Origin: Planctomycetota bacterium
Lineage (GTDB): Bacteria > Planctomycetota > UBA8108 > UBA1146
Reading direction: 5' to 3'
NCBI GenBank assembly: GCA_002691835.1
Contig: NZJA01000071.1
Location: forward strand, 1 to 27,850
DNA length: 27,850 bases
Part shown: piece by piece, positions 8,212 to 22,749 of the stretch
Layout: each line of letters starts with the position of its first letter
How positions within the stretch are numbered: the first letter of the stretch is position 1
Program-made: the position numbers and the translations under genes
Notes under the pieces: generated by a model
Told to the model about the DNA's origin: nothing
The model's input: only the letters and a program-made list of their open reading frames with translations
Database searches by the model: none

Positions 8212-9531
8212 ATGTATACACCAAAACTGTGGCTGATCATGATCCTCCTGCTCTGTCCGAGTTGGGTCCATGGTCAGTTGTTCGAGAGACCGGTCGTTCT
8301 GCAAGGGGTCAGTGCCCCGTCCCGCGGAGCGATTGTGGAAGATCTGACCATCATGATTCGTGGTGGCAGAATCGCTGAGATTTCTCAAAATGCGGATGTG
8401 CCACTGATGTCGAAGAAGATTTCGGCTCAGGGTCTTTTCGCCACGGCAGGACTCGTCGACCACGCCTCGGTCTTGACCCTTCCCATCGGGGGGGCTGGAG
8501 AAGCGAAGCAGTGGAGCTGGGATGGGTTTGACCGATTCTCCCAAGACGCCATTGAAGAAGTTCTTTCTTCCGGAGTGACCCGGGTTCATCTCGTGCCCGT
8601 CAGAAATGGCGGGATTGCCGGGCGATCCTGCTGGGTTTCTCTGAAGGGGGCGGGAAAGGGCGGCATGGGTGTGCTCGTCGAGGAAGAAGCCGCCCTTTGT
8701 ATCGATCTTTCCAGTGGGTCCCCTGCTGCTCGTATTCGGGCCTTCGACAAGGTTTTGGAACAGTTTCGGGGAGCTCGCGAGCGTCGTGAAAGCCTCGACA
8801 GTTACGAATCAGACCTCGAAGAGTATCTTGAGGAACTGAAAAAGTGGGTCGAGAAAAAAGCAGACGGTGAATCAGAAGGGAAACCTGAAGAAAGCCAAGA
8901 GGAAGGTGAGGAGAAGTCGGATGATGCTGAAAAAGCTCCCGAAAAACCTCGTCGGCCCGATCTCGCTGAAGAAGCAGATATTCTTCTGCGAGCGCTGGAC
9001 CACAAGATTCCAGTCCTGATCACCGCACGGAAGTCAGCGGATCTCCTCAACGCCTGTGAACTGATCCGCATGTTTGATCTGGATGCCATTCTTCATGGTG
9101 CAGACGAAGCAGCGCTCGTGGTCAATCAACTCAAAGACCTCGAAGACATTTCTTTTATTATCGACGAACCTGCCGGATCGATGTCCGCCTCGGGTCCTGG
9201 CGTGTTCACCTCAAGCCCGCGCCGTTCTGCAAATCTGGCTCAGCTACTGACCGATCATGAGTTTGATTGGGTGATCGGCAGCGGCGGATCAGGATCGGGA
9301 CTTTGGCGAATGACGAGGAAGATGACGGGCGACTCCGCTCTTTCAAGCGCACAGTCCACCAGTCTTCGGGGCATTCGAAGTCGCCGCGATGGACTCCGTC
9401 CTGGACAGAATCACATCGTCCTGTGGAGTGCCAATCCAGAAACTCAGGCTTCTGCCCGACCTGTGAAAGTCATCATTGATGGCGAAGTGGTCTGGCAAGA
9501 AGCATCGGCAGCGAGAGGGGGGCGTTTCTGA
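8212..9531 (+). CDS. Exported amidohydrolase-like protein 1, predicted catalytically inactive
   Basis: 439 residues. A signal peptide (about 1-21, cut before Gln22) predicts export. The early beta-sandwich strands (IVEDLTIMIRGGRIAEI) and the end (NHIVLWSANPETQASARPVKVIIDGEVVW) are amidohydrolase landmarks. Where active members read GxxDxHxH, this one has GLVDHASVL (80-88), so the HxH metal site is lost, and no later His/His/Asp set is seen. Residues about 175-250 form a charged coiled-coil insertion with a Glu/Lys-rich stretch, at the position where this family often has a shorter helical insertion. It is the first gene of an eight-gene block, and its stop overlaps the next start (TGATG). A non-enzymatic structural or partner role is an inference. 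Confidence 0.82.
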   Translation: MYTPKLWLIMILLLCPSWVHGQLFERPVVLQGVSAPSRGAIVEDLTIMIRGGRIAEISQNADVPLMSKKISAQGLFATAGLVDHASVLTLPIGGAGEAKQWSWDGFDRFSQDAIEEVLSSGVTRVHLVPVRNGGIAGRSCWVSLKGAGKGGMGVLVEEEAALCIDLSSGSPAARIRAFDKVLEQFRGARERRESLDSYESDLEEYLEELKKWVEKKADGESEGKPEESQEEGEEKSDDAEKAPEKPRRPDLAEEADILLRALDHKIPVLITARKSADLLNACELIRMFDLDAILHGADEAALVVNQLKDLEDISFIIDEPAGSMSASGPGVFTSSPRRSANLAQLLTDHEFDWVIGSGGSGSGLWRMTRKMTGDSALSSAQSTSLRGIRSRRDGLRPGQNHIVLWSANPETQASARPVKVIIDGEVVWQEASAARGGRF

Positions 9532-10733
9532 TGTCTCAGCACACAATTCTGAAACGTAATTTCCGGCATCGACTCCTGACAAGTGCGGTCTTCAGTCTTT
9601 GCATTGCATTCAGCCTGCTTTTGATTTCGACACCGGCCTTTTCCAGTGATCAGGGAATGATGATCACCGGGGCAAAAGTTCTTCTCGCAGAGGGAACTCT
9701 GGAGGGGGACTGGACCGTCATCATTGATCAGGAAGGAAAGATCGAGGCCTTGTTGCCCGATTCCACGGTCGATGAGAAGGCTCGAAAGCGGATTTATCGA
9801 GCTCCCGAAGGATCGGTGTTGACCCCGGGCCTTCATGATCTGATGGGCGCTCTGGGGACCCGTGGAAAACCGGGCACCCTGCGGTCGGGAACAGTCCTTG
9901 TCGATGAGAACCTGGATGCAGGTAGCAGTTTCGACGGCAGTGATCCATGGCTCGATGTGGCTGCCCAGCATGGTGTTCTCTACACCACACTGGTGGCACA
10001 ACCCTTGGGAGTGGTCAATGGCAGGAGTGCGACATTCCTTTGTCACACTGCGGCTTCGGCCACCCGATTGGGGGAGGGCAAGACCATGTTGGCTCTGGGT
10101 GATTCAGTCCTCTCTAGAGACCGGATGCCGACGAGCCGTACCTCGTTGCTTTCGATTTGGCGAGAGTGGATGGGGACTCAACCGGACCTACTAAAAAAAC
10201 CAGGACTACTTTTTGTCGCCGAGGGCATCGATTTGCGTCAGGCGTTGGCGTTGCCCTGGCCTGCGGATGCGATCCCGGTGTTTATTCACACGGGTGGAGA
10301 TGCCCGCTCTCCGATTGAGCTGTTGGGCGACCGTCTGCAGAAATCCCATATGGTCGTTGGCCCTCTGTTAGAGGGTGGAGACCAGGCACACCTGATGATG
10401 GCTGTTCGCGCATCCCGTCAGGGAGTCGAGTTGAGTTTTGCTGGCGGGCTTCCCGCGGGGCCGGCCGATCACTTGCGTGGGAGTGCTGCCATGGCTGTCG
10501 CTGCCGGAATGGATGCTGCTGCGGCTCGCAGGGCACTTTTCAGTAATCCTGCTCATGTTTCAGGGGCGACCGGAACCGGCGTGATCACCACCGGAAACCG
10601 GGCAGATTTGGTGCTTTTCTCCGGAGACCCTCTGGACCCTGCTTCCAAAGTGATCCACGTCTGGCGAGGTGGACATGGAACGCGGGTGGCTGAGCCCACC
10701 GAAATCAAAGAATTGGAGACCATCAGAAAATGA
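9531..10733 (+). CDS. Exported amidohydrolase-like protein 2, strongly diverged
   Basis: 400 residues, with a long N-terminal region and a hydrophobic signal segment (about 15-38, ending AFSS). It has the family's early strands (MMITGAKVLL, then WTVIIDQEGKIEAL), the turn VLTPGLHDLMGALG (96-109) where active enzymes have the HxH motif, and the end NRADLVLFSGDPLDPASKVIHVWRGG. Only one His (102) remains near the HxH position and it is displaced, so metal binding is unlikely. The gene lacks the long charged insertion of its neighbours and is the shortest of the block. Start and stop overlap both neighbours (TGATG upstream, ATGA downstream), which suggests coupled translation. The family call rests on end motifs and context, because the middle is very diverged. 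Confidence 0.78.
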   Translation: MSQHTILKRNFRHRLLTSAVFSLCIAFSLLLISTPAFSSDQGMMITGAKVLLAEGTLEGDWTVIIDQEGKIEALLPDSTVDEKARKRIYRAPEGSVLTPGLHDLMGALGTRGKPGTLRSGTVLVDENLDAGSSFDGSDPWLDVAAQHGVLYTTLVAQPLGVVNGRSATFLCHTAASATRLGEGKTMLALGDSVLSRDRMPTSRTSLLSIWREWMGTQPDLLKKPGLLFVAEGIDLRQALALPWPADAIPVFIHTGGDARSPIELLGDRLQKSHMVVGPLLEGGDQAHLMMAVRASRQGVELSFAGGLPAGPADHLRGSAAMAVAAGMDAAAARRALFSNPAHVSGATGTGVITTGNRADLVLFSGDPLDPASKVIHVWRGGHGTRVAEPTEIKELETIRK

Positions 10734-12256
10734 AAAACATACTGATGAACAAATCGACACTCTGGGTCCTGATCTTCCTGATGGGGGGATGGGGGATGTC
10801 GGTGAATGCAGAGGAGGAGACCGTTGATCCGGTGAACTCTTATGCCGTCAAAGCTGGTAAAGCTCATCTTGGAAATGGGCAGACCATCGAAAATGCCCTG
10901 ATTGTCATTCGAGATGGGCGGATTGAAAGTGTGACGGCTGGTGGAAGCGCTCCTGAAGGTCTCGCAGTTCTCGAAGTGAACGAAGTGACACCGGGTCTCA
11001 TCGATGCCAATGCAAAAATTGATGTGATGGATGCGCTTCTTTACCCGACCGAGGATCCCAGACTGTCGATCCTTCGAGCATTGGGAATGGAAGATCAGTA
11101 CCACGGGGGAGATGTCTGTCCTTGCGGGACCGTCTGTCCTGCCGTGACACTTCACCGCCACGATGAGAGCTGCCTATTCTGTGGATACCCTGAGCATGAT
11201 CCTCATGCTCATGCCCACGATGAAGAGGAAGAAGACGAACTCTTTGAACTCGAAAAGCAGGCGATGGCTGCAGGAGTTCCTGGTGAAAGTGGTCTGGTCA
11301 CGGATCAGTCCAGTGAAGTGGTGCCCCAGTTTGAGATCATGGACGGAATTGATCACGGTTCGAAGGATTTTGACCGTCTTCTCAAAGAGGGAGTGACGAC
11401 CGTCTACATTAGCCCGGATGGTTCTGCAGTGATCGGCTCGCGAGGGGCGACGATGCGAACCGGGGGACCTGTCACCGACCGGTTCATGGGAACCGGATCT
11501 GTGAAAACAGTGGTTGGTAGCGATGCCTACAGATACGGCACCCGTAACCGCAGCCCTTTCCGAGGATTTGTTTCGATTTACACCCGCCGTCCTGATTCCC
11601 GTATGGGTGTGGGCTGGGTCTTCCGCCGCGCCTTTTACGATGCCCTCTTGAGAGCCCGTGGTCTTGAACCGACCGGGGCCGACAAGACATCTGCAGAAGC
11701 ATCAAAGGTTTTGCAGGGAGTCCTTGCGGGTGAAGTTCCCATGCGAATTCAGGCCCGGACAGGAAGCGATATTGAGACCGCTTTCCGTTTCGCCAAAGAG
11801 TTTGGGATTACCTTCACTTTGGAGGACCCTGTCGAGGCCTGGAAACGCGTAGATCTTCTCAAGAAAACGGAAACGCCGGTCGTGTTTGGGCCGATCTTTG
11901 ATCAGCCCAGTGGCATTACAGCCGGGTCCAGTGAGATGAGAAATCGTCGACTGCACACTGTTCGGGATCTCTCAAATGCGGGGATTCCAATGGCGTTGAG
12001 CGCACAGGACCTCCGCGGTGAGGAAGGACTGGCCCGTCAGGCAATGCTCGCCATCCGTTATGGAGTCGAGCCCGCTGAAGCACTCCGCATGGTGACGCAA
12101 TACCCGGCGGAATTGTTGGGAATCGAAAAAGAGGTGGGAACTCTGGAACCCGGCCGCAGGGCGGACCTGGTCTTCTGGAATGGCTCCCCATTTTCGGCAT
12201 TGACCCGAATCGAAAAGGTCATGCTGGACGGTGTACTTTCATACGAGAAAAACTGA
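10730..12256 (+). CDS. Exported amidohydrolase-like protein 3 with Cys/His-rich insertion
   Basis: 508 residues. Signal peptide 1-27 (ending VNA before Glu). The fold landmarks are clear: NALIVIRDGRIESV, VTPGLIDANAKIDV (HxH replaced by Asn-Ala-Lys), SRMGVGWVFRRAFYDALL, and RIQARTGSDIETAFRFAKEFG, which aligns with the HAHRADDI segment of active relatives but has lost the histidines. The C-terminal EAL...YPAELLGIEKEVGTLEPGRRADLVFW is typical. Residues 125-163 are an unusual insertion with Cys at 130, 132, 136, 148 and 151 and His at 142, 144, 156, 159, 161 and 163, followed by an acidic run. This could bind zinc or another metal; no CxxCH heme motif is present. The catalytic site is lost, so the role is unknown. 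ATGA overlap with the previous gene. Confidence 0.85.
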   Translation: MKNILMNKSTLWVLIFLMGGWGMSVNAEEETVDPVNSYAVKAGKAHLGNGQTIENALIVIRDGRIESVTAGGSAPEGLAVLEVNEVTPGLIDANAKIDVMDALLYPTEDPRLSILRALGMEDQYHGGDVCPCGTVCPAVTLHRHDESCLFCGYPEHDPHAHAHDEEEEDELFELEKQAMAAGVPGESGLVTDQSSEVVPQFEIMDGIDHGSKDFDRLLKEGVTTVYISPDGSAVIGSRGATMRTGGPVTDRFMGTGSVKTVVGSDAYRYGTRNRSPFRGFVSIYTRRPDSRMGVGWVFRRAFYDALLRARGLEPTGADKTSAEASKVLQGVLAGEVPMRIQARTGSDIETAFRFAKEFGITFTLEDPVEAWKRVDLLKKTETPVVFGPIFDQPSGITAGSSEMRNRRLHTVRDLSNAGIPMALSAQDLRGEEGLARQAMLAIRYGVEPAEALRMVTQYPAELLGIEKEVGTLEPGRRADLVFWNGSPFSALTRIEKVMLDGVLSYEKN

Positions 12257-12308
12257 GAACAACCTTCCGTCAGCAGAGGCTGCGGAAGCTTTGAAACCGA
12301 GGTATTCG

Positions 12309-13868
12309 ATGTCGACCTTGACTCACAAAATTCTGGCTTTGGGAGTGTCCCTGCTGGTTCTTTTTCAGCATGGCTCCGTAGAAGCCCAATCCTCACCGAA
12401 GGTCGCTCTGACCGGCGGCAAGATTTTAACGATCTCCGGGGCTCCAGTCGTCGATGGCACCATTCTGATTGAGAATGGCATCATTCAGGCTGTCGGGGGT
12501 GGCGATATGGCGATCCCTTACGATGCCATGGAGGTAGATTGCAGCGGCATGATCCTCGCTCCTGGATTGGTGGATTCCCACAATCCAGCCGGTCTGGATA
12601 TTCCCAACGAAAATCTGTCGGTGGCACCTTTTGTCGACGTTTATGACGCCATTGATCCTTCCCGATTCTTTTTTGAGGACTCTCTTCGCAATGGAGTTTC
12701 GACCGTTCACGTCATGCAGGGAAATAACTGCGTGGTCGGTGGAGTGAGCCGAATCGTGCATCCGATTGGATTGTCTCCGGATGAGATGACTCGTTTGCCG
12801 GGAATCGCTCTCAAGATGTCTGTGACTCCAAAGGGTGGCTACGACCGACTGCGTCAGCGCGCTGAGCTTCGAGAAGTCTTTAGTGAGTTTGACCGTTGGC
12901 ACGAAAATCTTGCGGAAACCCGTTATGACCAGGAAGCAGAGAGCAGCGATGAGATGGACGCCCTGCCCCCTGCCGAGGCCCGCGAGAAGGGGAAATCTCT
13001 GATCCGTGAAGAAGATCTGGATGATCGCCATCGTCACCTGGCCTACCTCGAGGGTGGGAAGCTTGGCGCATGGATTCATTGTGGTTCAGCGACGGATGTC
13101 GCTCCTGCGTTGGCAATGATCGAGAAGAGGGGCTGGGGAGGAAGAGCAGTGCTCGTTCTCTCAGGAGATGCCCATTTGGCAGCGGATGAAATCGCTGCTG
13201 CAAAGGTCCCCGTGGTATTGGACAGTGACCTGATCCACCGGGAAAGAGACGCCATTACTGGAGAAATTGAAGAGACCTTTATTCCCGAAGTGATGCGCAA
13301 AAAGCGGATCCGCTTCGCTCTTCAGAGTGGTCGCAGCAATGTCATGCCGGAGCATCTTTTGACTTATCAGGCGGCAAGGCTTGTTCGCAACGGTATGTCT
13401 CAAGAGCAGGCATTGAGAACGATTACTCTGGGTGCCGCAGAAATCTGCGGGGTTGCAGATCAGTATGGGTCCATCGACAAAGGAAAAGTCGCCAACATCG
13501 TCATGTGGACCGGCAACCCACTCGAGATGACTTCCTGGGTTCAAAAGGTCTGGGTCGAAGGAATTCTGGCCTATGACCGCGAGAAAGACGCTCGACTGGA
13601 GAGATTGTTCCCGGAGGCCGCTGAGGTCGAAGGTGCCGGTGAGCCTCTTTCGGAGGATGGAGCCGCCGCCGAGGTTGACTCAGGAAAATCCGAAGGCGAG
13701 TCGGAGGAGGAAGGTGCTTCGACAAAAGAATCCGAATCGAGCGCCGAAGTTGACGGATCCGAGCCATTGAAGAAAGATGATGGCCAAACTGACGGCGGTA
13801 AAACGGAGCCTGAAACCGATCCTGAGCCGACTCCTGAACCGGATTCCGGAAACAAGGGAGGGCTTTAG
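12309..13868 (+). CDS. Exported amidohydrolase-like protein 4 with acidic C-terminal tail
   Basis: 519 residues. The frame is open further upstream, to an ATG at 12231 inside the previous gene, but the ATG at 12309 has GAGG nearby and begins a clean signal peptide (1-27, VEAQ cut), so it is chosen. It has GTILIENGIIQAV, then ILAPGLVDSHNPAG: His91 survives but the second His of HxH is Pro93. A later His257 (WIHCGSATD) lies where active enzymes have a His. The catalytic Asp element reads ALQSGRSNV and is lost. The repeated end (AEICGVADQYGSIDKGKVANIVMW) is typical. The last 86 residues (from about 434) are low-complexity and strongly acidic, rich in Glu, Ser and Asp, and finish with Pro-Glu-Pro repeats. 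The tail may keep the protein soluble or bind cations or partners. Confidence 0.84.
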   Translation: MSTLTHKILALGVSLLVLFQHGSVEAQSSPKVALTGGKILTISGAPVVDGTILIENGIIQAVGGGDMAIPYDAMEVDCSGMILAPGLVDSHNPAGLDIPNENLSVAPFVDVYDAIDPSRFFFEDSLRNGVSTVHVMQGNNCVVGGVSRIVHPIGLSPDEMTRLPGIALKMSVTPKGGYDRLRQRAELREVFSEFDRWHENLAETRYDQEAESSDEMDALPPAEAREKGKSLIREEDLDDRHRHLAYLEGGKLGAWIHCGSATDVAPALAMIEKRGWGGRAVLVLSGDAHLAADEIAAAKVPVVLDSDLIHRERDAITGEIEETFIPEVMRKKRIRFALQSGRSNVMPEHLLTYQAARLVRNGMSQEQALRTITLGAAEICGVADQYGSIDKGKVANIVMWTGNPLEMTSWVQKVWVEGILAYDREKDARLERLFPEAAEVEGAGEPLSEDGAAAEVDSGKSEGESEEEGASTKESESSAEVDGSEPLKKDDGQTDGGKTEPETDPEPTPEPDSGNKGGL

Positions 13869-13869
13869 A

Positions 13870-16602
13870 ATGCAGACAGGTAAGCGGACCCGGCGTACCG
13901 GGTTACTGCTCTTCTTGATGCTCATTGTCACGGCCCTGTTTTCTCCAGCAGGAGAAGTGCAGGCGGGTGGAGACTTTGTTCTTCGAGCCGGACATCTGCA
14001 CACCGGAGAGAAAGCGATCACCGATGGAGCGTTGGTCGTTCGCGATGGTCGTGTGGTGGCGAGCGGTTCATGGGCGCAGATTCAACCTGGCCTTATGGGG
14101 GATCTACCGATCCTGCATTGGCCAGACGCCTACGTGACACCGGGACTCGTGGCTGCTTCGAGCAAAGTAGTTGGCCCTCATCGGGGTCAAGAGTCTATCT
14201 CCGCGGCATATCTTGCAGCGGATGGCTACGATACATACGGTGATCACCGCCCATTACTGGAGACCGGTATTACCACTGTTCATGTGAATCCCGGCGAGCA
14301 CCGGTTGATCTCAGGTCAGGGAGCCGTCGTAAAATTGGTAGGGGATCCTGCGAACCGGGTTCTCAGCCATTCCTCGGATCTTTCGATCTCTTTGAGAGAT
14401 TCCGTCGATAGTCCTGATCCACTTTTGGAGATCCCGTTTCCAGCTTCCAGTGATGTTCAAATCGAACCTCCCACTGCTCAGAGACCGGTCAGCCGGATCG
14501 ATCGTCTCCTCGCACTGCGGGAAGCTGTCGAGGATGCTGGTGAAGATCCTCTTGCCCATGGTCGCTTGGCAAAAGTCTGGCAAGCGGGCACTCCCTTGAG
14601 GATTGCCGCGGATGCGATGCCCGACATTCAGGGAATCCTCGGGATGATGTCAACGGAAACCCGTAGAGGTTATCTGGTGACAGATGCGATCGTTTCCGGG
14701 ATGGAAGCTGCACTCGTGGCCGCTCAGATTCCGGTTGTTTTACGTCTGAAAGAGCCTCAGGGAGATACCCCAGATGGAGGAGTTGTCAGCGCGTATGGCT
14801 TTCCAGATCTTCAGGGGACACCCGAATGGGCTCTCGCTCCAGCCGGCGAACTTGACGAGATGGGTTGGGCAATCAGTGAGGCTGCGGCAAAGATGGAGTC
14901 TCCTGAATCCGTGATTCCCTGGGTGACTCGCAATGCGGCGAGGATTCTCGGAGTGGCTGACCGTGTTGGTCACCTCGAAACCGGAGCAGATGCCGACATT
15001 GTCGTCTGGAACGACTCTCCCTGGGAACTTCATTCACGTCCGATCGAAGTGTTTGTCGAGGGCCTGCGGGCTTGGCAACCACAAGAAAAAAATGCGACGG
15101 TGATTCGGGCCGAGACGATATGGATCTCTCCTGAGGAGCAGATTTCGAATGGTCAGGTTCTGATCGAGGATGGCATCATTACGGCAGTCGGTCGGCTGGT
15201 TCCCCATCCTCCACACTGCCAAGTGATCCATGCTGGACCGGGAAGTTTTTTGGCTCCGGGATTCATCGACTGCTATGGCCATCTGGGACTGGAAGGCGAA
15301 TCCGCTTCCATGGGAACGGGTGACCGTCTTCATCGACTCCTCGGGGTCACCGGGGCACGTGAACACAGCGTTGCCCTCGCCGGAATCACGACTCAGTTGT
15401 TGGCTCCACGGCGATTACAGAGGGGATCAGGCATCGGTGTCTTGTCGAAGACCTCTGGAGACAGTCGCCATGCAAGGATCGAAGATGAATATTCGATGCT
15501 TCTTTTGGAGATTTCTGATTCTGGCTTCAGTGCGATTCGCCGTCTTTTCGATCAAGGCAAGAAATACCTCGAGTCATGGCAGAAATATGAGAAAGACCTT
15601 GCCGAGTGGGAGAAGAAAAAAGCCGCAGGTGAAGAGGTAGAAAAGAAGAAGGAAGATGAAGTCGAGCAGGTCGCAGAGGAGAATCTGGACGATCCTCTGA
15701 CCGGAATCTGGGAGATGACGATCAGCGGTGGTCCGATTCCTGAACCCGAGTCTGCGACGATCTCCGTCACTTTGACGGGCTCGGAGTGGGAGGGGAGAGT
15801 GATCGAACCGTCTCCACCAGTTCCTGTTCGAATCGTCGGTACCCTCGAAGGGTCAACGATGAGAGGTTCCATCGAAATTCCCGATGATGCCCTCCCGGAT
15901 ACCCCCAAAATCGAAGCTGAATTGATCGGAGAGGATGCCCTCGAAGGGAAAATATCGATTTTGACGTTTTCTGCGGACCTCAGCGGTAAGCGAACGAGCA
16001 AGGAAGCGAAAACTTTCAAGGTGACCCGGCGGAAAAAACAGGCTGACGACGGCCGTCCGATGCCACCGAGAGTGAGAGCGAATCTTGAGCCGTTCCGTAC
16101 GGTGTTGGAAAAGAAAACTCCAGTTCTCGTTTCGGTCTCTGGTTACAACACTCTTCCTTCAGTGGTTCAGTACTTCACCGAGAGGGAGATCCCCTTCGCG
16201 GTGCAAATTGACGAAAACATGCGATTCCAGCGCGACCTTCTTCTGGAGAAAAAAATCCCGGTCTTGCTATCAGATCAAATGAGCTTTGAAGCCGCTGATC
16301 AAACCTACATGCCTTCGACCTTTTTGGGGCGTGCAGGGATCACTGTGGGATTCAGAAGCTCAGCCGGTGACGGAGCACGTCGATTGCCATTCCGGGTTCG
16401 CAATGAAGTTTCGAACGGGATGGCTCCGGATGCTGCTCTCGATGCGCTAACTCGGGGAGCCGCACACATTGTGGGGGCTCATGATCGAATCGGCAAAATC
16501 AGTGAAGGTATGGAAGCCGATCTTTTGATTTGGAAAGGCCACCCCTTTGAGGCGGGAAGTCGTCTCGAGAGGGTCTTTGTTAACGGAGAGGAGGTCCGCT
16601 GA
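13870..16602 (+). CDS. Exported double amidohydrolase-like fusion with inserted beta-rich domain (protein 5)
   Basis: 910 residues, about twice the family length. The start at 13870 lies one base after the previous stop and has GGGAGGG upstream; an in-frame ATG at 13777 is inside the previous gene. Signal peptide about 1-32. Unit 1 (about 37-405) has DGALVVRDGRVVAS and VTPGLVAASSKVVG with no His, and ends with ILGVADRVGHLETGADADIV. Unit 2 (about 408-910) has NGQVLIEDGIITAV and FLAPGFIDCYGHLG, where only the second His of HxH (His471) remains. Unit 2 also holds a charged coiled coil (about 563-605) and then a beta-rich domain (about 605-720, starting LTGIWEMTISGG) inserted in the barrel. It ends with IVGAHDRIGKISEGMEADLLIW. 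Both units look inactive. The fusion fits a stable pairing of two paralogues in a larger assembly. Confidence 0.85.
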   Translation: MQTGKRTRRTGLLLFLMLIVTALFSPAGEVQAGGDFVLRAGHLHTGEKAITDGALVVRDGRVVASGSWAQIQPGLMGDLPILHWPDAYVTPGLVAASSKVVGPHRGQESISAAYLAADGYDTYGDHRPLLETGITTVHVNPGEHRLISGQGAVVKLVGDPANRVLSHSSDLSISLRDSVDSPDPLLEIPFPASSDVQIEPPTAQRPVSRIDRLLALREAVEDAGEDPLAHGRLAKVWQAGTPLRIAADAMPDIQGILGMMSTETRRGYLVTDAIVSGMEAALVAAQIPVVLRLKEPQGDTPDGGVVSAYGFPDLQGTPEWALAPAGELDEMGWAISEAAAKMESPESVIPWVTRNAARILGVADRVGHLETGADADIVVWNDSPWELHSRPIEVFVEGLRAWQPQEKNATVIRAETIWISPEEQISNGQVLIEDGIITAVGRLVPHPPHCQVIHAGPGSFLAPGFIDCYGHLGLEGESASMGTGDRLHRLLGVTGAREHSVALAGITTQLLAPRRLQRGSGIGVLSKTSGDSRHARIEDEYSMLLLEISDSGFSAIRRLFDQGKKYLESWQKYEKDLAEWEKKKAAGEEVEKKKEDEVEQVAEENLDDPLTGIWEMTISGGPIPEPESATISVTLTGSEWEGRVIEPSPPVPVRIVGTLEGSTMRGSIEIPDDALPDTPKIEAELIGEDALEGKISILTFSADLSGKRTSKEAKTFKVTRRKKQADDGRPMPPRVRANLEPFRTVLEKKTPVLVSVSGYNTLPSVVQYFTEREIPFAVQIDENMRFQRDLLLEKKIPVLLSDQMSFEAADQTYMPSTFLGRAGITVGFRSSAGDGARRLPFRVRNEVSNGMAPDAALDALTRGAAHIVGAHDRIGKISEGMEADLLIWKGHPFEAGSRLERVFVNGEEVR

Positions 16603-17843
16603 TGAGGATCCCAGCAATCATGACGAGACTTTTGCTTTTGCTCTTCATTTTCAGTGCCCCGGCGACGGCGGGTTTCGGTGAAACCCTGGCATTTAAAGTC
16701 GGAAAAGTCGTGACCTTCGATAATGAAGAACGCGTCATCAATAACGCCACCGTCATCGTGGAGAATGGCAAGATCACAGCAGTGGGGAAATCCAAAGAGA
16801 TTCAGATTCCTGCCAATGCAAAAGTGATCGAACATAAAGATCTCTGGCTGGTTCCCGGGTTTGTCGAGTGCCACAACCACACCGGCGGAGGATCTTCTGA
16901 TCTTCACGATTATGTTTATCTGACCAACCCAGGTTTGCGAACTCTGGAGTCGATCATCCCCGACAACCCTGAAATGATTCGGGCACGGGCGGGAGGCGTG
17001 ACAACCGTTTTGACGATCCCCGGTAGCGGAAACAACATGTCGGGTTTTGGTACGATTCTGAAGACCGCTGGAGGCTCTGTTGAAGAGTCGGTTCTGAAAG
17101 CTCCGGGTTCTTTGAAGATCGCACAGGCTGGAAACCCAGAGCGTTACTTCTATGGTGTCGGTCGTTCTTTCATGAACTTCAATACACGTCAGACTCTTCA
17201 AAAAGCTCGCGATTACCATCTTGCCAGAACTGAATGGGAAGAAGGTCGCCTTGAGGTTGAGCCTGCGTTCAATCTGAATTGGGAAGAGTTCAGACCTCTC
17301 TTCCGTCGAGAGACAGTGGCTTCGGTTCATACCCAGATCTATCAGGTTTTGATGACCACTGTCAAAATGGTTGCCGGTGAGTTTAATATCAGGACTGTTC
17401 TTGACCATTCCACTTTTGATGCATGGAAAGTAGCACCGCTGGTCAACGCGGATGAATCCATCTACACCATCAACGGACCTCGCCAGCTGCACTATGACCG
17501 TACCCAAAGGCGACTGATGGGTAATGCTGCCCGTTGGTGGCAGGGAGGTGTCCGCAAACTGGGAATCAACACCGATTCACCGGTGGTTCCGCAGGAGGAG
17601 CTGGCCTACCAGGCGAGCATGGCTTGTTACTACGGTTGGAAACCTTATGAAGCTCTCAAGGGGATCACTCGAATCCCAGCAGAAGCGCTGATGATGGATC
17701 ACCGTCTGGGCAGTATCACTGTGGGATTAGATGCCGACTTTTGTTTGTGGACAGGTGACCCCATCGATCCGAGATCTTCTTGTGAAGTGACGGTGATCGA
17801 TGGCGAAGTTACCTACGAAGCCAGTGAGAAGAGGGTGTTCTAA
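16602..17843 (+). CDS. Exported metal-dependent amidohydrolase 6, the only unit with an intact active site
   Basis: 413 residues; signal peptide about 1-23 (ATAG). This unit keeps the complete metal-site pattern: His91 and His93 in VECHNHTGG, a candidate carboxylated lysine Lys172 in SLKIAQAGNPERYFYG, His243 in SVHTQIY, His269 in LDHSTFDAW and Asp325 in INTDSPVV. That is the order expected for a binuclear amidohydrolase, which uses a metal-bound water to cleave amide or related bonds. The substrate cannot be deduced; relatives of this exported group are often annotated as imidazolonepropionase-like or simply amidohydrolase. It has no long charged insertion. It starts by TGATG overlap after a strong GGAGAGGAGG site and ends by TAATG overlap with the next gene, so it sits in the middle of the translationally coupled block. 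Confidence 0.92.
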   Translation: MRIPAIMTRLLLLLFIFSAPATAGFGETLAFKVGKVVTFDNEERVINNATVIVENGKITAVGKSKEIQIPANAKVIEHKDLWLVPGFVECHNHTGGGSSDLHDYVYLTNPGLRTLESIIPDNPEMIRARAGGVTTVLTIPGSGNNMSGFGTILKTAGGSVEESVLKAPGSLKIAQAGNPERYFYGVGRSFMNFNTRQTLQKARDYHLARTEWEEGRLEVEPAFNLNWEEFRPLFRRETVASVHTQIYQVLMTTVKMVAGEFNIRTVLDHSTFDAWKVAPLVNADESIYTINGPRQLHYDRTQRRLMGNAARWWQGGVRKLGINTDSPVVPQEELAYQASMACYYGWKPYEALKGITRIPAEALMMDHRLGSITVGLDADFCLWTGDPIDPRSSCEVTVIDGEVTYEASEKRVF

Positions 17844-19162
17844 TGAGATTCATCAAATGGGCATGGGTCTTTTCAGCACTGCTATGTGTCTCCGCGGATC
17901 TGTCTGCAAATGACAGGGTGACGGTGATTCGTGCGGGAGCGGTGATCACCGGGACCGGAGAAACTATCAGTCCGGGTGAAGTGGTCATCGAAGATGGCAA
18001 GATCTCACTGGTGGGATCTCAGCTGGAAATCCCTGAGAATGCAAAAATAATTAATGCCCCCAATCAAACACTGATGCCGGGCATGGTTCTCTCAAAGACA
18101 AGCCAGGGTTTGATCGGCAGCAGAGTCAGTGGAATCGGCTGTGACCAGACGGTTCTTAATCGCTGGGTCGATTCTGAAATGGATTGGGATTCTTTCCTCG
18201 AAGCAGGATTTGTCGCGGCTGCTTTTGTACCAGCGGGAACAGGATTCCACGGTCAGGCGATCGTGGTTCATACAGCTTCTGAGGCTGAAAACCGAATTCT
18301 TCGTGAATCTGTCTACCTGCCTCTGACAGTGACCGGATCGACTTCCCTTCATCGAACGATCGCACAGGCTTTCGATGGTGCGCGTAAAGAGATCGAAAAG
18401 GTCAAAAAGGCTCGGGAGAGCTGGGAGAAAGAGCAAGAGGAAGCCAAGAAGAAGGCTGAAGAGGCTAAGAAAAAAGCCGCTGAAAAAGGCGAAAAAGAAC
18501 AAGCTGCTGAAGCTAAAGGTGACAAATCCAAAGAGGGTGAAGGGCCGAAAGAATTCAAGGCTCCGCCGATGAATCCGGCATTGATCCCGATTGTCGATAT
18601 TCTTGAGGAGAAATCCTCAGCCATGCCAATGGTCGTCTCGATAAGCACACCTGGATCGATGCTTCATTTGGATTCAGCACTTTCGAAAGTGAAAGAACTT
18701 GAAGAGAGAGATCCTCAATCGATCTTTGTCCTTCCGGCAAGTCGGAATGGGGCATTCCATGAGGTTGTGGATCTTCTGATCGAGCGTAAAGCAACAGTCA
18801 TGATTCCTCCCGGAATGAGTGCTTTCCCTGATACCTATTATCGCTTTCATGTGCCTGCTGCGCTTTCGCGGGGGGGGTGCGAAGTGATTACTCTTCCAAG
18901 GTCTGACAATGCAAGTGGACTGAGAGGCATACCGGGTCTGCTCTCTGAGCAAATCCGCTATGGAATGTCGAAGGATGATGCGATTGCTTCTGTTACCTCC
19001 GCTCCGGCAAAGTTTTTGGGACTCGGAGATCGCATGGGAACGATTGAAGAAGGTAAAGACGCACACTTGATTCTGCTCAATGGATCGCTGCTGGATCCTG
19101 GAGTTCAAGTCATGAAAACCATGATCTCCGGTGAAGTGGTTTGGGATCGGGAGGAACGCTGA
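17843..19162 (+). CDS. Exported amidohydrolase-like protein 7 with Lys/Glu/Ala coiled coil
   Basis: 439 residues; signal peptide 1-22 (LSA before Asn). It has PGEVVIEDGKISLV, then LMPGMVLSKTSQG (78-89) where HxH should be, with neither His kept. The end is typical: FLGLGDRMGTIEEGKDAHLILLNGSLLDPG. Residues about 179-240 form a long alpha-helical stretch of Lys, Glu and Ala repeats (EEAKKKAEEAKKKAAEK), almost certainly a coiled coil or single alpha-helix, followed by a Pro-containing link. The gene shares an A with the previous stop (TAATG) and has a good purine-rich site (GAAGAGGG). It is predicted inactive; the coil suggests a contact or spacer role. Confidence 0.83.
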   Translation: MRFIKWAWVFSALLCVSADLSANDRVTVIRAGAVITGTGETISPGEVVIEDGKISLVGSQLEIPENAKIINAPNQTLMPGMVLSKTSQGLIGSRVSGIGCDQTVLNRWVDSEMDWDSFLEAGFVAAAFVPAGTGFHGQAIVVHTASEAENRILRESVYLPLTVTGSTSLHRTIAQAFDGARKEIEKVKKARESWEKEQEEAKKKAEEAKKKAAEKGEKEQAAEAKGDKSKEGEGPKEFKAPPMNPALIPIVDILEEKSSAMPMVVSISTPGSMLHLDSALSKVKELEERDPQSIFVLPASRNGAFHEVVDLLIERKATVMIPPGMSAFPDTYYRFHVPAALSRGGCEVITLPRSDNASGLRGIPGLLSEQIRYGMSKDDAIASVTSAPAKFLGLGDRMGTIEEGKDAHLILLNGSLLDPGVQVMKTMISGEVVWDREER

Positions 19163-20565
19163 TGTTCACAAATATCCGAATTTTCATGGCGATGTTGGCC
19201 TTTGTCATCGTCTTTACGGACCTTCCTCTGTATCCGGGGGGCTTCAGTCTTTCTGAAAGCATCTCGGAAGCCCAAGATCCGCCTCGTCGACGCAGAAGAG
19301 GTCGTCGCGCACCGACTCCACCTCCCGTGCCTGAACCAGAGCCGGAGAAGAAGGAAGTCGTCGCTTCTGATTCTGAGGACGAATATCTGGTCGTCAAAGG
19401 TGCAACGATTCACACGGTGACGGGTGGAACCCACAGGAATGGAACTTTGATCTGTAAGAATGGCAAAATCTATCAGATCATCGCCGGTCCTGCCGATGGC
19501 CCCGAGGGAGCCGAAGTGATCGAAGCTGCTGGCCACCACGTTTATCCAGGCTTGGTCGCCTTTCGTTCCTCGGGACTCGTGGGCTCCGGTGAGGCTGAAA
19601 AGAGTCAGGACCCTTTCGATCTCGACACGACGATGGGGTTGGCTGCAGGGATCACTTCTACCTGGAACGGTTCTCGGGTAACCAAACTTGTTCACGGTAG
19701 CCTCGAGGATTTGACGATTCGTCCCAAGTCTTTCAGCGGTATCAATTACAGCTATCGAAATCCCCGTGGACGCCGTGAATTACGTCAGGCGTTCGATCGG
19801 GTTCAGGAGCATCTGCGAGCTCTCGAGCGTCATGCCGAGGAGAAAAAGACGAACCCGGAAGCCGAAGCTCCCAGTGATAAATGGATCAAGGGGGTCTTTG
19901 CGATTGCACGTAGCCTGCTGACAGGAGACAGCCAAGCGTTGGTCCGTACCCGATCGATGGCTGAGATGCGTGAATATTCTTCTTTGGCACGCAAGTATGG
20001 GTTTGAAATCATCTTCGAAGGTGCAGAAGAGGGATGGATCGATCCCGGTGTCCTTTCAAGAACCGGCGCCACTGCGGTGATCTCCCCTCGTGCTCGTGTG
20101 AATGCAAGTGAGGAATTGAATCGAGAAAGTGGCTCGAGCATTGAGAACGCAAAGCGACTTCATGAGGCCGGTATCCCTTTGGTGATTATTCCACAAAGCA
20201 CCGGTATTGCTCTTTGGGGTCTTGCAGGCAGGGATCTGTCGCACCTTCCTCTGGAAGCGGCTTTTGCAGTGCGGGGTGGCCTGCCTGAACAAGTGGCCAT
20301 CGAGGCCATCACGATCGAGCCGGCGAGACTTTTGGGAGTCGCCGATAGAGTGGGATCCCTGGAGGTGGGAAAAGATGCCGACTTTATCATTACCGATGGC
20401 GATCTTCTGAGTTACATGACCTTGGTGCGCTGGTCTTTCGTCAATGGCGAGATTCAGTACGACAAGGAAGATGAAGGCCTTCTGGATCATATTAGACCTG
20501 GCGGCGATCTCGATGCTCCGCCACCGGATGATCACTGGCCACGAAGATTGGGAGATCCCCTCTAA
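19162..20565 (+). CDS. Exported amidohydrolase-like protein 8, last gene of the block
   Basis: 467 residues. The ATG at 19162 overlaps the previous stop (TGATG) and follows GGGAGGA; a TTG at 19141 is in frame but inside the previous gene. A hydrophobic segment (about 7-24) and SISEAQ suggest a signal peptide. Residues 40-66 are a linker with an Arg-rich run (RRRRRGRR), then Pro/Glu repeats. The amidohydrolase part begins near residue 75 (YLVVKGATIHTVTGG). The turn reads VYPGLVAFRSSGLVG, so HxH is lost. A helical charged segment (about 200-240) and the usual end (RLLGVADRVGSLEVGKDADFIITDGD) follow. The C-terminus is extended (HIRPGGDLDAPPPDDHW). Predicted catalytically inactive. Confidence 0.84.
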   Translation: MFTNIRIFMAMLAFVIVFTDLPLYPGGFSLSESISEAQDPPRRRRRGRRAPTPPPVPEPEPEKKEVVASDSEDEYLVVKGATIHTVTGGTHRNGTLICKNGKIYQIIAGPADGPEGAEVIEAAGHHVYPGLVAFRSSGLVGSGEAEKSQDPFDLDTTMGLAAGITSTWNGSRVTKLVHGSLEDLTIRPKSFSGINYSYRNPRGRRELRQAFDRVQEHLRALERHAEEKKTNPEAEAPSDKWIKGVFAIARSLLTGDSQALVRTRSMAEMREYSSLARKYGFEIIFEGAEEGWIDPGVLSRTGATAVISPRARVNASEELNRESGSSIENAKRLHEAGIPLVIIPQSTGIALWGLAGRDLSHLPLEAAFAVRGGLPEQVAIEAITIEPARLLGVADRVGSLEVGKDADFIITDGDLLSYMTLVRWSFVNGEIQYDKEDEGLLDHIRPGGDLDAPPPDDHWPRRLGDPL

Positions 20566-20706: not shown

Positions 20707-22749
20707 ATGTCACCCTCCAAATTGTGGATTTTTTGGATAGCCCTTCTTCTTTGCTTACCGACAGGTGGTCAAGGATCCGTCGCTCATGGCCAGTGCCAAG
20801 AAGACGATCTTGAGGTGTTTGGGGTCAATCCTGGGGATCGATTGGGTCGCTCTGTAGCAGTCAGTGGCGGGAGAGTTTTCGTCGGCGCTATTGGAGACGA
20901 TGGAGGTGGATTCCTGAGTGGCAGTGTCCGCTCTTTCAAAAGAGGACTTTCCGGTTACCAGCTCGAACACGTTTTCAGTGGGCAGTCAGGGGCAGAGTAT
21001 GGCTCTTCCCTCGCTGCAGAGGGCAGTTGGCTCGCAGTGGGTGCGTCTGGACTCGGCTACATTGAAATGTGGAAACGAGATCGCTTTGGCTGGGTGTATC
21101 ATTCGCTGATCAGCGACCCTGCTGGGCACGACGGAGATGGATTTGGAAGCAGTTTAGACCTGAAGGACGATCTGTTGATCGTCGGTAGCCCAACGTTTTT
21201 GACGGATATCGGTGAGGCTGGTTGCGTCACTGTTTGGCGAAGAAGTTCTATGGGAGATTGGCAATTTGAAGAGCGTCTTCTCGCCCAAGATCGGGTCGAA
21301 GGAGATAATTTTGGGACAGCTGTTTCTCTCGATTCTGTTGGGGGAATGTTGGTCGGCTCTCCTGGAAGAGATTCCAACGGCATCGACAGTGGTATCGCAA
21401 TTCTCTACAACGGTGGACAAGACGGCTGGTTTGAAACAGCGCGCTTTGGTTCATTCGTCGCACAACCCGGTGATCGCTTTGGGACTTCTGTGGGCTTAGT
21501 GGAAGATCATGTCTTCGTGGGTAGTCCATACTCCAATTTTTCAGGGCCCAATTCGGGACAAGTTGTTTCCTACCGAAGATCTAACTCCATCTGGATACTA
21601 CAGCCATTGATCAATCCTGATCCGGGTTCCACTGGAACCGGTTTTGGGGCGACTTTGGCGATCGATGGAAACCTGCTCGCTGTCGGTGCGCCGATGGACA
21701 TGGGGGCAGAGGCCATGCCATCCGGAAGGGTCAACATCTATCGGTATCAACAGGATTGGAATTTAGAGAGCTCAATGTTTGGCCATCCAGGTTCTTTTTT
21801 GGGAACTGCGATCGCGGTCGACAAGGGAATGGTGTTTTCTGGTGCTCCTCTTGATTCAACTCTTGCAGTGTTGGGTGGTGGAGTCAAATTTGTCGCCATT
21901 GGTGACACTGATTGCGATTGGAATGGGCAACTGGATTCATGTGAGATCGCTGAAGGAACCGCCAATGATTGCGATCTGGATGGGATACCTGACGCTTGCG
22001 CGATTACCCAAGGATTGGTGGCCGACTGTGACTTCGACATGATCCCAGACAGTTGCTCTACGATTTCTGGTGGAGTATCAGACTGCGATGCCGACGGAGT
22101 CCCTGATGAGTGTGCCACGACTTTGGGTCTTGTCTCTGATTGTAATGAAGACCAAATACCTGATGTTTGCCAAGATGATTGTAATCAGAATGGAGAGCCT
22201 GATGCCTGTGAGGTTCTCGTGAGCCAGGCAGATTGCGATCAGAATGGTCTTCTCGACGAATGTGAAATCGCTGCTGGTCAGCTCTCTGACTGTGATGGAA
22301 ATGGCTTACCAGATATTTGTGAAGATGACTGTGATGAAGATGGTTTACCCGATATCTGCGCCGTGATTTTAGGCCTTGTTGAGGATTGTAATGAAAATTT
22401 AAATCCAGACTCGTGTGATTTGTCTGACCCCACTCTCAACGCAAATGGGAATGGTTACATTGACGAATGTGAACCCCGATTTATCCGTGGCGATGCAGAT
22501 GGTGTTGAGGGAGTTCGATTAGCGGATGCCGTCCTGTTGATATCCAGGGTCTTTGGAGAAATCGTCATCGTCGATTGCGAGGAAGCTGCTGATGCCAATG
22601 GCGATGGATTTTTGGATATTTCCGATGGATTGTACTTGCTGATTTATGAGTTTGCTGGCGGGCCTCCTCCACCAGCACCTTTCCCTGAATGCGATATTGC
22701 GCCGAGCCTAACAAGCTTCCCTTGTACGAATCATCCGTCCTGTCCCTAG
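20707..22749 (+). CDS. Secreted FG-GAP-like beta-propeller protein with Asp/Cys calcium-type repeats and dockerin-like end
   Basis: 680 residues. Signal peptide about 1-29 (AHGQ). Residues about 35-395 hold seven repeats of the type GDxFGxSVxxxxxxxxVGSP (for example GDRLGRSVAVSGGRVFVGA), as in integrin-alpha FG-GAP propellers, so a seven-bladed propeller is expected. Residues about 402-587 contain eleven units of the form DC(D/N)x(D/N)GxxDxC, which resemble thrombospondin type-3 or dockerin calcium loops, each with two Cys that could form disulfides. Residues 594-660 have two EF-hand-like loops (DADGVEGVRLADAV and DANGDGFLDISDGL), a dockerin-like pair followed by GGPPPPAPFPEC. This layout is common in planctomycete surface or secreted proteins. 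The ribosome site is weak. The stop overlaps the convergent gene. A role in cell-surface adhesion or structure is an inference. Confidence 0.85.
   Translation: MSPSKLWIFWIALLLCLPTGGQGSVAHGQCQEDDLEVFGVNPGDRLGRSVAVSGGRVFVGAIGDDGGGFLSGSVRSFKRGLSGYQLEHVFSGQSGAEYGSSLAAEGSWLAVGASGLGYIEMWKRDRFGWVYHSLISDPAGHDGDGFGSSLDLKDDLLIVGSPTFLTDIGEAGCVTVWRRSSMGDWQFEERLLAQDRVEGDNFGTAVSLDSVGGMLVGSPGRDSNGIDSGIAILYNGGQDGWFETARFGSFVAQPGDRFGTSVGLVEDHVFVGSPYSNFSGPNSGQVVSYRRSNSIWILQPLINPDPGSTGTGFGATLAIDGNLLAVGAPMDMGAEAMPSGRVNIYRYQQDWNLESSMFGHPGSFLGTAIAVDKGMVFSGAPLDSTLAVLGGGVKFVAIGDTDCDWNGQLDSCEIAEGTANDCDLDGIPDACAITQGLVADCDFDMIPDSCSTISGGVSDCDADGVPDECATTLGLVSDCNEDQIPDVCQDDCNQNGEPDACEVLVSQADCDQNGLLDECEIAAGQLSDCDGNGLPDICEDDCDEDGLPDICAVILGLVEDCNENLNPDSCDLSDPTLNANGNGYIDECEPRFIRGDADGVEGVRLADAVLLISRVFGEIVIVDCEEAADANGDGFLDISDGLYLLIYEFAGGPPPPAPFPECDIAPSLTSFPCTNHPSCP

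Follow-up and report, generated by a model that had tools for sequence, protein, structure and literature searches.

Positions 8212-20565 of contig NZJA01000071.1 from a Planctomycetota bacterium (assembly GCA_002691835.1) carry eight open genes on the plus strand, here g1 to g8, which encode nine amidohydrolase units, g5 being a double gene. The window that was analyzed is the whole stretch of 27,850 nucleotides (nt), positions 1 to 27,850 of the contig. Only one unit, g6 (16602-17843, 413 amino acids (aa), predicted exported), has a complete subtype I metal site and is called live; the other eight are called dead. They are g1 (8212-9531, 439 aa, predicted exported), g2 (9531-10733, 400 aa, predicted exported, its start being the last base of the g1 stop codon), g3 (10730-12256, 508 aa, with a Cys/His-rich insert past strand 1), g4 (12309-13868, 519 aa, with three of the six ligand places retained in the window), the two halves g5a (13870-15096) and g5b (15097-16602, with a beta-rich insert) of g5 (910 aa counted from 13870), g7 (17843-19162, 439 aa, predicted exported), and g8 (19162-20565, 467 aa, predicted exported, with a conserved C-terminal tail). 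All genes are given from their likely starts. The overlap is 1 nt at g1/g2, g5/g6, g6/g7, and g7/g8 and 4 nt at g2/g3; a single nt separates g4 from g5, and the 52 nt between g3 and g4 are the only wide spacing in the block. The earlier note on this DNA had described eight adjacent plus-strand genes with nine units, and both the coordinates and the profile comparison reported below agree with it.

Export was judged only by Kyte-Doolittle hydropathy of the N-termini. The best 12-residue mean ranges from 1.82 to 3.11 in the eight genes, all of which have a hydrophobic N-terminus, compared with 1.27-1.62 in three neighbouring genes presumed to be cytoplasmic. These N-terminal stretches of g1-g8 are typical of an export signal, and the products are likely to be exported; by this measure the signal peptides that had been noticed in all eight genes are borne out.

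Metal site and fold of the nine units

In subtype I amidohydrolases the HxH motif and an Asp bind one metal, two His bind the other, and a carboxylated Lys forms the bridge (PMC11342369). The ligands of g6 are H91, H93, K172, H243, H269, and D325. All six are present in 121 out of 121 g6 rows (the window plus the 120 best of its 1813 relatives) and in 129 out of 130 g6 rows from the loci described below, the remaining row being gapped at the two N-terminal places. On these residues g6 is a predicted binuclear enzyme of subtype I. The six-ligand set is lacking in g1-g5, g7, and g8: the dead units of the window retain 0-3 of the aligned ligands, the most in g4 (H91, K172, and H243), while g5a is readable at five places, with the H269 place in a gap. 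Among 569 rows of non-g6 units (58 g1, 66 g2, 68 g3, 70 g4, 75 g5a, 75 g5b, 79 g7, and 78 g8, window rows counted) no complete set was found, counts that depend on the alignment, in which a shifted row could hide a ligand. The claim that only g6 has an intact site therefore holds in the window and in these rows; the earlier note was also right to speak of seven other genes, which hold the eight dead units, and its readings of the replaced HxH site (DHAS, HDLMG, NAK, HNP, AASSK, YGH, LSKTS, and AFRSS) are correct.

The extent of loss differs between units. No aligned ligand is retained in 66 out of 75 g5a rows (five places read), 53 out of 79 g7 rows, and 65 out of 78 g8 rows. Of the 70 g4 rows, 57 have kept H91 and 65 have kept K172. 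The largest number among dead-unit rows, five of six ligands, occurs in g2 of two distant loci (L063 and L095); HxH is retained in g2 of L065, L071, and L095, and in g5b of five loci. These remnants in g2, g4, and g5b are read as stepwise decay from enzymes. The g2 proteins of L095, L063, L065, and L071 may still bind metal. In g3 of the window, residues ~125-163 form a Cys/His-rich insert (CPCG, CLFCG, HAHAH), a candidate metal binder that is present in the window's relatives and absent from most distant g3. It was rejected as an alternative metal site because at least four Cys are found in only 16 out of 62 g3 rows. Partial sites thus exist, and a general replacement of the lost site, which would have told against the earlier reading, was not found in the 569 ligand rows or the 62 g3 rows.

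The Pfam profile Amidohydro_1 passes its cut-off in g3-g8, falls short of it in g2, and has no match in g1, so the assignment of g1 and g2 rests on profile comparison and synteny. In profile-profile comparison every other unit aligns to g6 with a probability of 98-99.9, and with wider alignments g1-g4, g7, and g8 reach 100. The barrel with a flanking beta domain that marks the amidohydrolase superfamily was found; structure models give good support to the predicted fold in g8 and weak support in g5, whose low-confidence model (g5a included) has 3ooq as its first Foldseek match. The nearest Protein Data Bank entry of g6 is also 3ooq. The best NCBIfam match of g6, the Xaa-Pro dipeptidase family NF051886, has a score of 72.4 against a curated cut-off of 500, and this assignment was rejected since the score is far too low. 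Residues ~200-310 of the g5b half form an inserted beta-rich domain (TGxWE...SGGPxPEPE), and some distant loci encode a g5b that is shorter by ~100 residues. For relatives of g8, the sources use the names 'amidohydrolase family protein' or 'imidazolonepropionase-like amidohydrolase'. These relatives are probably not hydrolases despite such names, a warning for annotation.

Conservation of the block and related gene sets

When bacterial genome contigs were scanned with g6, 23 loci were obtained, two of which (L022 and L023) are weak N-terminal matches only. By title, 17 of the remaining 21 are planctomycete, L009 is Bacillota, L015 is Gemmatimonadota, and L003 and L004 carry no phylum. The block is colinear in these loci as far as the contigs extend, except in L015, which begins at g4. 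The order and the loss of ligands recur in related loci and are therefore more than chance. In a phylum sample around genome G008, g6 was found at an E value of 1e-60 or better in 103 out of 392 genomes, and g4 in 139 at 1e-20 and in 100 at 1e-40 or better, the latter a cut chosen post hoc; g4 matches weaker than 1e-40 are probably other amidohydrolases. Both genes (g4 at 1e-40, g6 at 1e-60) are present in 96 genomes. In the four genomes with g4 only, the contig breaks off inside the block or just past it (one has a partial g6), which points to a contig-end artefact. Among the seven with g6 only, contig ends truncate four (L044, L085, L100, and L102), and in the block of the other three (L091, L094, and L101) a divergent unit occupies the g4 place.

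Sixty loci fetched from this sample were joined with the first 21, and gene order was counted with each dead unit taken once and segments of at least 70 bits. All of g1-g8 occur in order (g5 counted once) in 51 out of 81 loci. The other 30 comprise 21 in which the block stops no more than 500 bases from a sequence end on the side where genes are lacking, five with fused genes, two with unclear labels (L060 and L072, the first slot of L072 being scored as g5b), and two that are split (L015 and L042). In distant loci several units score near a neighbouring unit type, so that the labels there lean on position. Fusions within the block join dead units only. The dead homologues are encoded and conserved together with g6, and the conservation in relatives that the earlier note had made a touchstone of its reading is thus present.

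In 24 of the 81 loci, 2-5 copies of g6 lie between g5 and g7; every complete copy has an intact metal site, and the dead units, as read by eye, are not multiplied there. Three genomes hold the set in two places. In G186, g6-g8 are on one contig (L042), with 11 kb upstream that hold no units, and g1-g5 are in order on another (L115). In G158, no g6 occurs in the stretch of more than 4 kb that comes after g1-g5 (L116), and a separate contig (L045) has g6-g8. In G009, one place has g4-g8 (L015), and a second (L028) has a cut g1, g2, and g3 plus part of g4. That chromosome, titled Gemmatimonadota, thus carries g4 twice (once cut), and its block may be a horizontal transfer. In G186 and G158, where the link has been lost, both halves have nonetheless been retained, and this speaks for a common task more than for mere linkage.

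The ratio of nonsynonymous to synonymous divergence (dN/dS; Nei-Gojobori, 14 locus pairs), wherever dS was unsaturated, is 0.006-0.30 overall and 0.019-0.30 in the dead units. All frames are therefore under strong purifying selection, g1 and g2 being the least conserved, and relaxed selection, which had been named as a possible refutation, is rejected. The first 21 loci and the window (up to 22 rows) share 174 positions of at least 95% identity in g6, 136 in g4, 113 in g8, 111 in g3, and 107 in g5b, and fewer in g7 (71), g5a (70), g1 (46), and g2 (33). A FastTree phylogeny requires 12 label changes against a minimum of 9 for ten groups (seven groups need two changes, because some distant rows fall outside), and a smaller tree set requires 17 against a minimum of 16, with long branches flagged in both trees. 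The trees suggest that the units are old, separate lineages.

Simpler sets of the same subfamily were found as well. In the phylum of G009, relatives of g6 at 1e-50 or better occur in 9 out of 150 genomes; the identity to g6 is 60% in G009 (planctomycete-type) versus 32-35% in the other eight, and the G009 set is therefore read as a transfer. In these eight loci (L107-L114), an amidohydrolase with HxH always adjoins one without it. Seven of the pairs have HHKHHD at the ligand places of the live gene and [AM]xDQGF at those of the dead one; in the eighth the dead gene has AHDQGF and the live gene lies in an over-long frame in which only HxH was checked. HxH was not found in the dead partner in any of 121 rows (the query and the best 120 of 1264), which have D, Q/E, G, and F at four ligand places, with D, G, and F fixed. 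Planctomycete-type genomes have a second locus of this kind: L024 and L030 are live-dead pairs, and in L026 and L027 (the latter from G009) a chain with a dead and a live half adjoins a dead gene, L025 and L034 being like L026 in motif and domain layout. A single chain is live-dead in L029 (from G009) and dead-live-dead in L031 (3202-8082, 1626 aa) and L032 (3769-8373, 1534 aa). In an 81-row tree the live units of g6, pairs, and chains group together (support 89), with the dead partners placed elsewhere. The approximately unbiased test rejected neither local pairing (p 0.256 for the pair of the G009 phylum and 0.13 for L024/L030) nor a single origin of the block (p 0.386), and an ancient split into live and dead lines is accordingly not claimed.

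The flanking genes gave no lead to function, because they vary between lineages and neighbours are therefore uninformative. Directly downstream of g8 lies a gene for an FG-GAP repeat protein with a hydrophobic N-terminus (20707-22749), with like genes in 13 other loci, mainly near relatives; a Glycos_transf_3 protein is encoded downstream of the block in 22 loci. Other neighbours in the window are presumably pdxS, pdxT, and a helicase.

A proposed exported assembly and its alternatives

We propose that the block probably encodes one exported hetero-oligomeric hydrolase, with g6 as catalytic subunit and the eight dead paralogues as obligatory structural or gating subunits. In this assembly g6 would act as a binuclear metal amidohydrolase. 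The dead units, paralogues that would have kept the fold and lost the metal site, would be obligatory and position-specific parts that hold, cap, or stabilize g6 and influence how its active site is reached. The reaction probably cleaves an amide bond of a small peptide-like substrate by hydrolysis. The assembly and its stoichiometry, the role of the dead units within it (scaffold, gate, or substrate capture), and the substrate of g6 are what we infer from the genes. The simplest explanation of the fused dead units, the chains, the tight spacing of the genes, their joint occurrence, and their constant order would be a physical assembly, and the fusions, live-dead pairs, and dead-live-dead chains favour dead units that would assemble around an active g6. 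The fixed row kept across distant relatives suggests a machine of one working and eight non-working sisters. As a speculative extension, such a nine-part exported machine could be widespread in planctomycetes, with dead parts forming a chamber or gate at fixed places and with a substrate range that the organism alters through exchange or multiplication of the live unit or units alone (one, or locally 2-5), much as proteasome or chaperonin subunits are specialized.

Several points weigh against the proposed assembly. The complex is so far a prediction from genes; at 1e-60, g6 is lacking in 289 out of the 392 genomes of the sample; and the g4 cut of 1e-40 was picked once the list had been seen. 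Two of the presumed parts, g1 and g2, fail the Pfam cut-off and are weakly conserved, and no fusion of g6 to a dead unit was seen in the block's loci. Since the set is split in G009, G186, and G158, a single operon is not needed. Genome G361 has, besides a full block on another contig (L105), a g6-like gene (L106) whose surroundings (7.8 kb upstream and 10.8 kb downstream) are free of other units, so that g6 relatives can stand alone.

The same split sets of G186 and G158, in showing that a common neighbourhood is dispensable, would suit dead units that are independent periplasmic binding proteins, whose pocket binds a ligand without cleaving it and which need no contact with g6. The high conservation of several dead units, with near-invariant positions in g3 (111), g4 (136), and g8 (113) as examples, would also suit binders, as would the invariant D, G, and F that the dead partner of the pairs has at three of the ligand places. 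Neither fixed order over such distances nor mutual fusions and dead-live-dead chains would be needed by them, and we regard this explanation as unlikely. An unlikely place is likewise given to the idea that some dead units are still enzymes, with another metal arrangement or with no metal. It draws on H91 and K172 of g4 (57 and 65 of 70 rows), the five ligands of g2 in L063 and L095, HxH of g5b in five loci, and the Cys/His-rich g3 insert in the window's relatives, yet no partial ligand set is constant across the orthologues of any unit, and most rows of g5a (66/75 at five places), g7 (53/79), and g8 (65/78) keep no aligned ligand.

A constructive neutral ratchet, in which a homo-oligomer was duplicated into interdependent subunits and lost its redundant sites, so that a complex exists and its dead parts add no new function, would explain why site remnants vary between lineages and why a form with a single dead partner exists. 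The separate conserved lineages of the units, together with the extra copies gained by the live unit alone, speak rather for a division of labour, and this rival, which does not deny the complex itself, appears quite improbable. That the dead units are relics being lost and retained by chance in an operon deserves next to no credence: catalytic residues are gone in eight of the nine units, but a dN/dS of 0.019-0.30 in the dead units, frames that are open and ordered in the loci, and both halves kept in the split sets already contradict it. With the assembly around g6 as the preferred reading, the meaning given to the block in the earlier note is largely right; the new findings are that the block is conserved across planctomycetes, that the live unit alone is multiplied, that a set can be split and still be complete, and that simpler live-dead pairs and chains exist.

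Comparison with known systems

A literature search, judged from titles and the openings of abstracts and with most subscription papers out of reach, gave no description of such a system. Among subtype I enzymes, the ochratoxinase of Aspergillus niger has the same six ligands as g6, and subtype I amidohydrolases have the site that the dead units of the block are without (PMC11342369). The likeness of g6 to 3ooq, an amidohydrolase from Thermotoga maritima MSB8, refers to the aligned part only, and a paper on 3ooq was not found in the same search. In CRMP/DPYSL proteins an amidohydrolase fold has lost its metal site and gained structural roles; they differ from the block in being eukaryotic and cytosolic and in having no ordered gene block.

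A closer parallel is the pseudo-dihydroorotase (pDHO) of the Pseudomonas class A2 aspartate transcarbamoylase (ATCase), an inactive amidohydrolase (dihydroorotase) homologue beside an active partner, required for assembly and activity of that partner in a dodecamer; yeast ura2 carries a domain homologous to pDHO (PMC7053772). The live partner there is a transcarbamoylase and there is one dead subunit type (PMC7053772), whereas the live partner in the block is a sister amidohydrolase and the dead units number eight. By analogy, pDHO is the best precedent for the proposed assembly. Export is not known to be part of the pDHO/ATCase system. The pairs of L107-L114 and the chains of L031 and L032 belong to the same subfamily as the block and likewise have a live unit adjoined by dead ones, one or two in number versus eight. 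With the two-part version in another phylum and the one-chain dead-live-dead versions, nature offers a graded series of 1-8 dead partners, and the question of why enzymes recruit dead copies of themselves becomes directly testable. Eight dead paralogues to one live unit, in an order kept by selection across distant planctomycetes, go well past the precedent with its one dead type, and the block belongs, as an extreme variant, with the enzymes that have pseudoenzyme partners.

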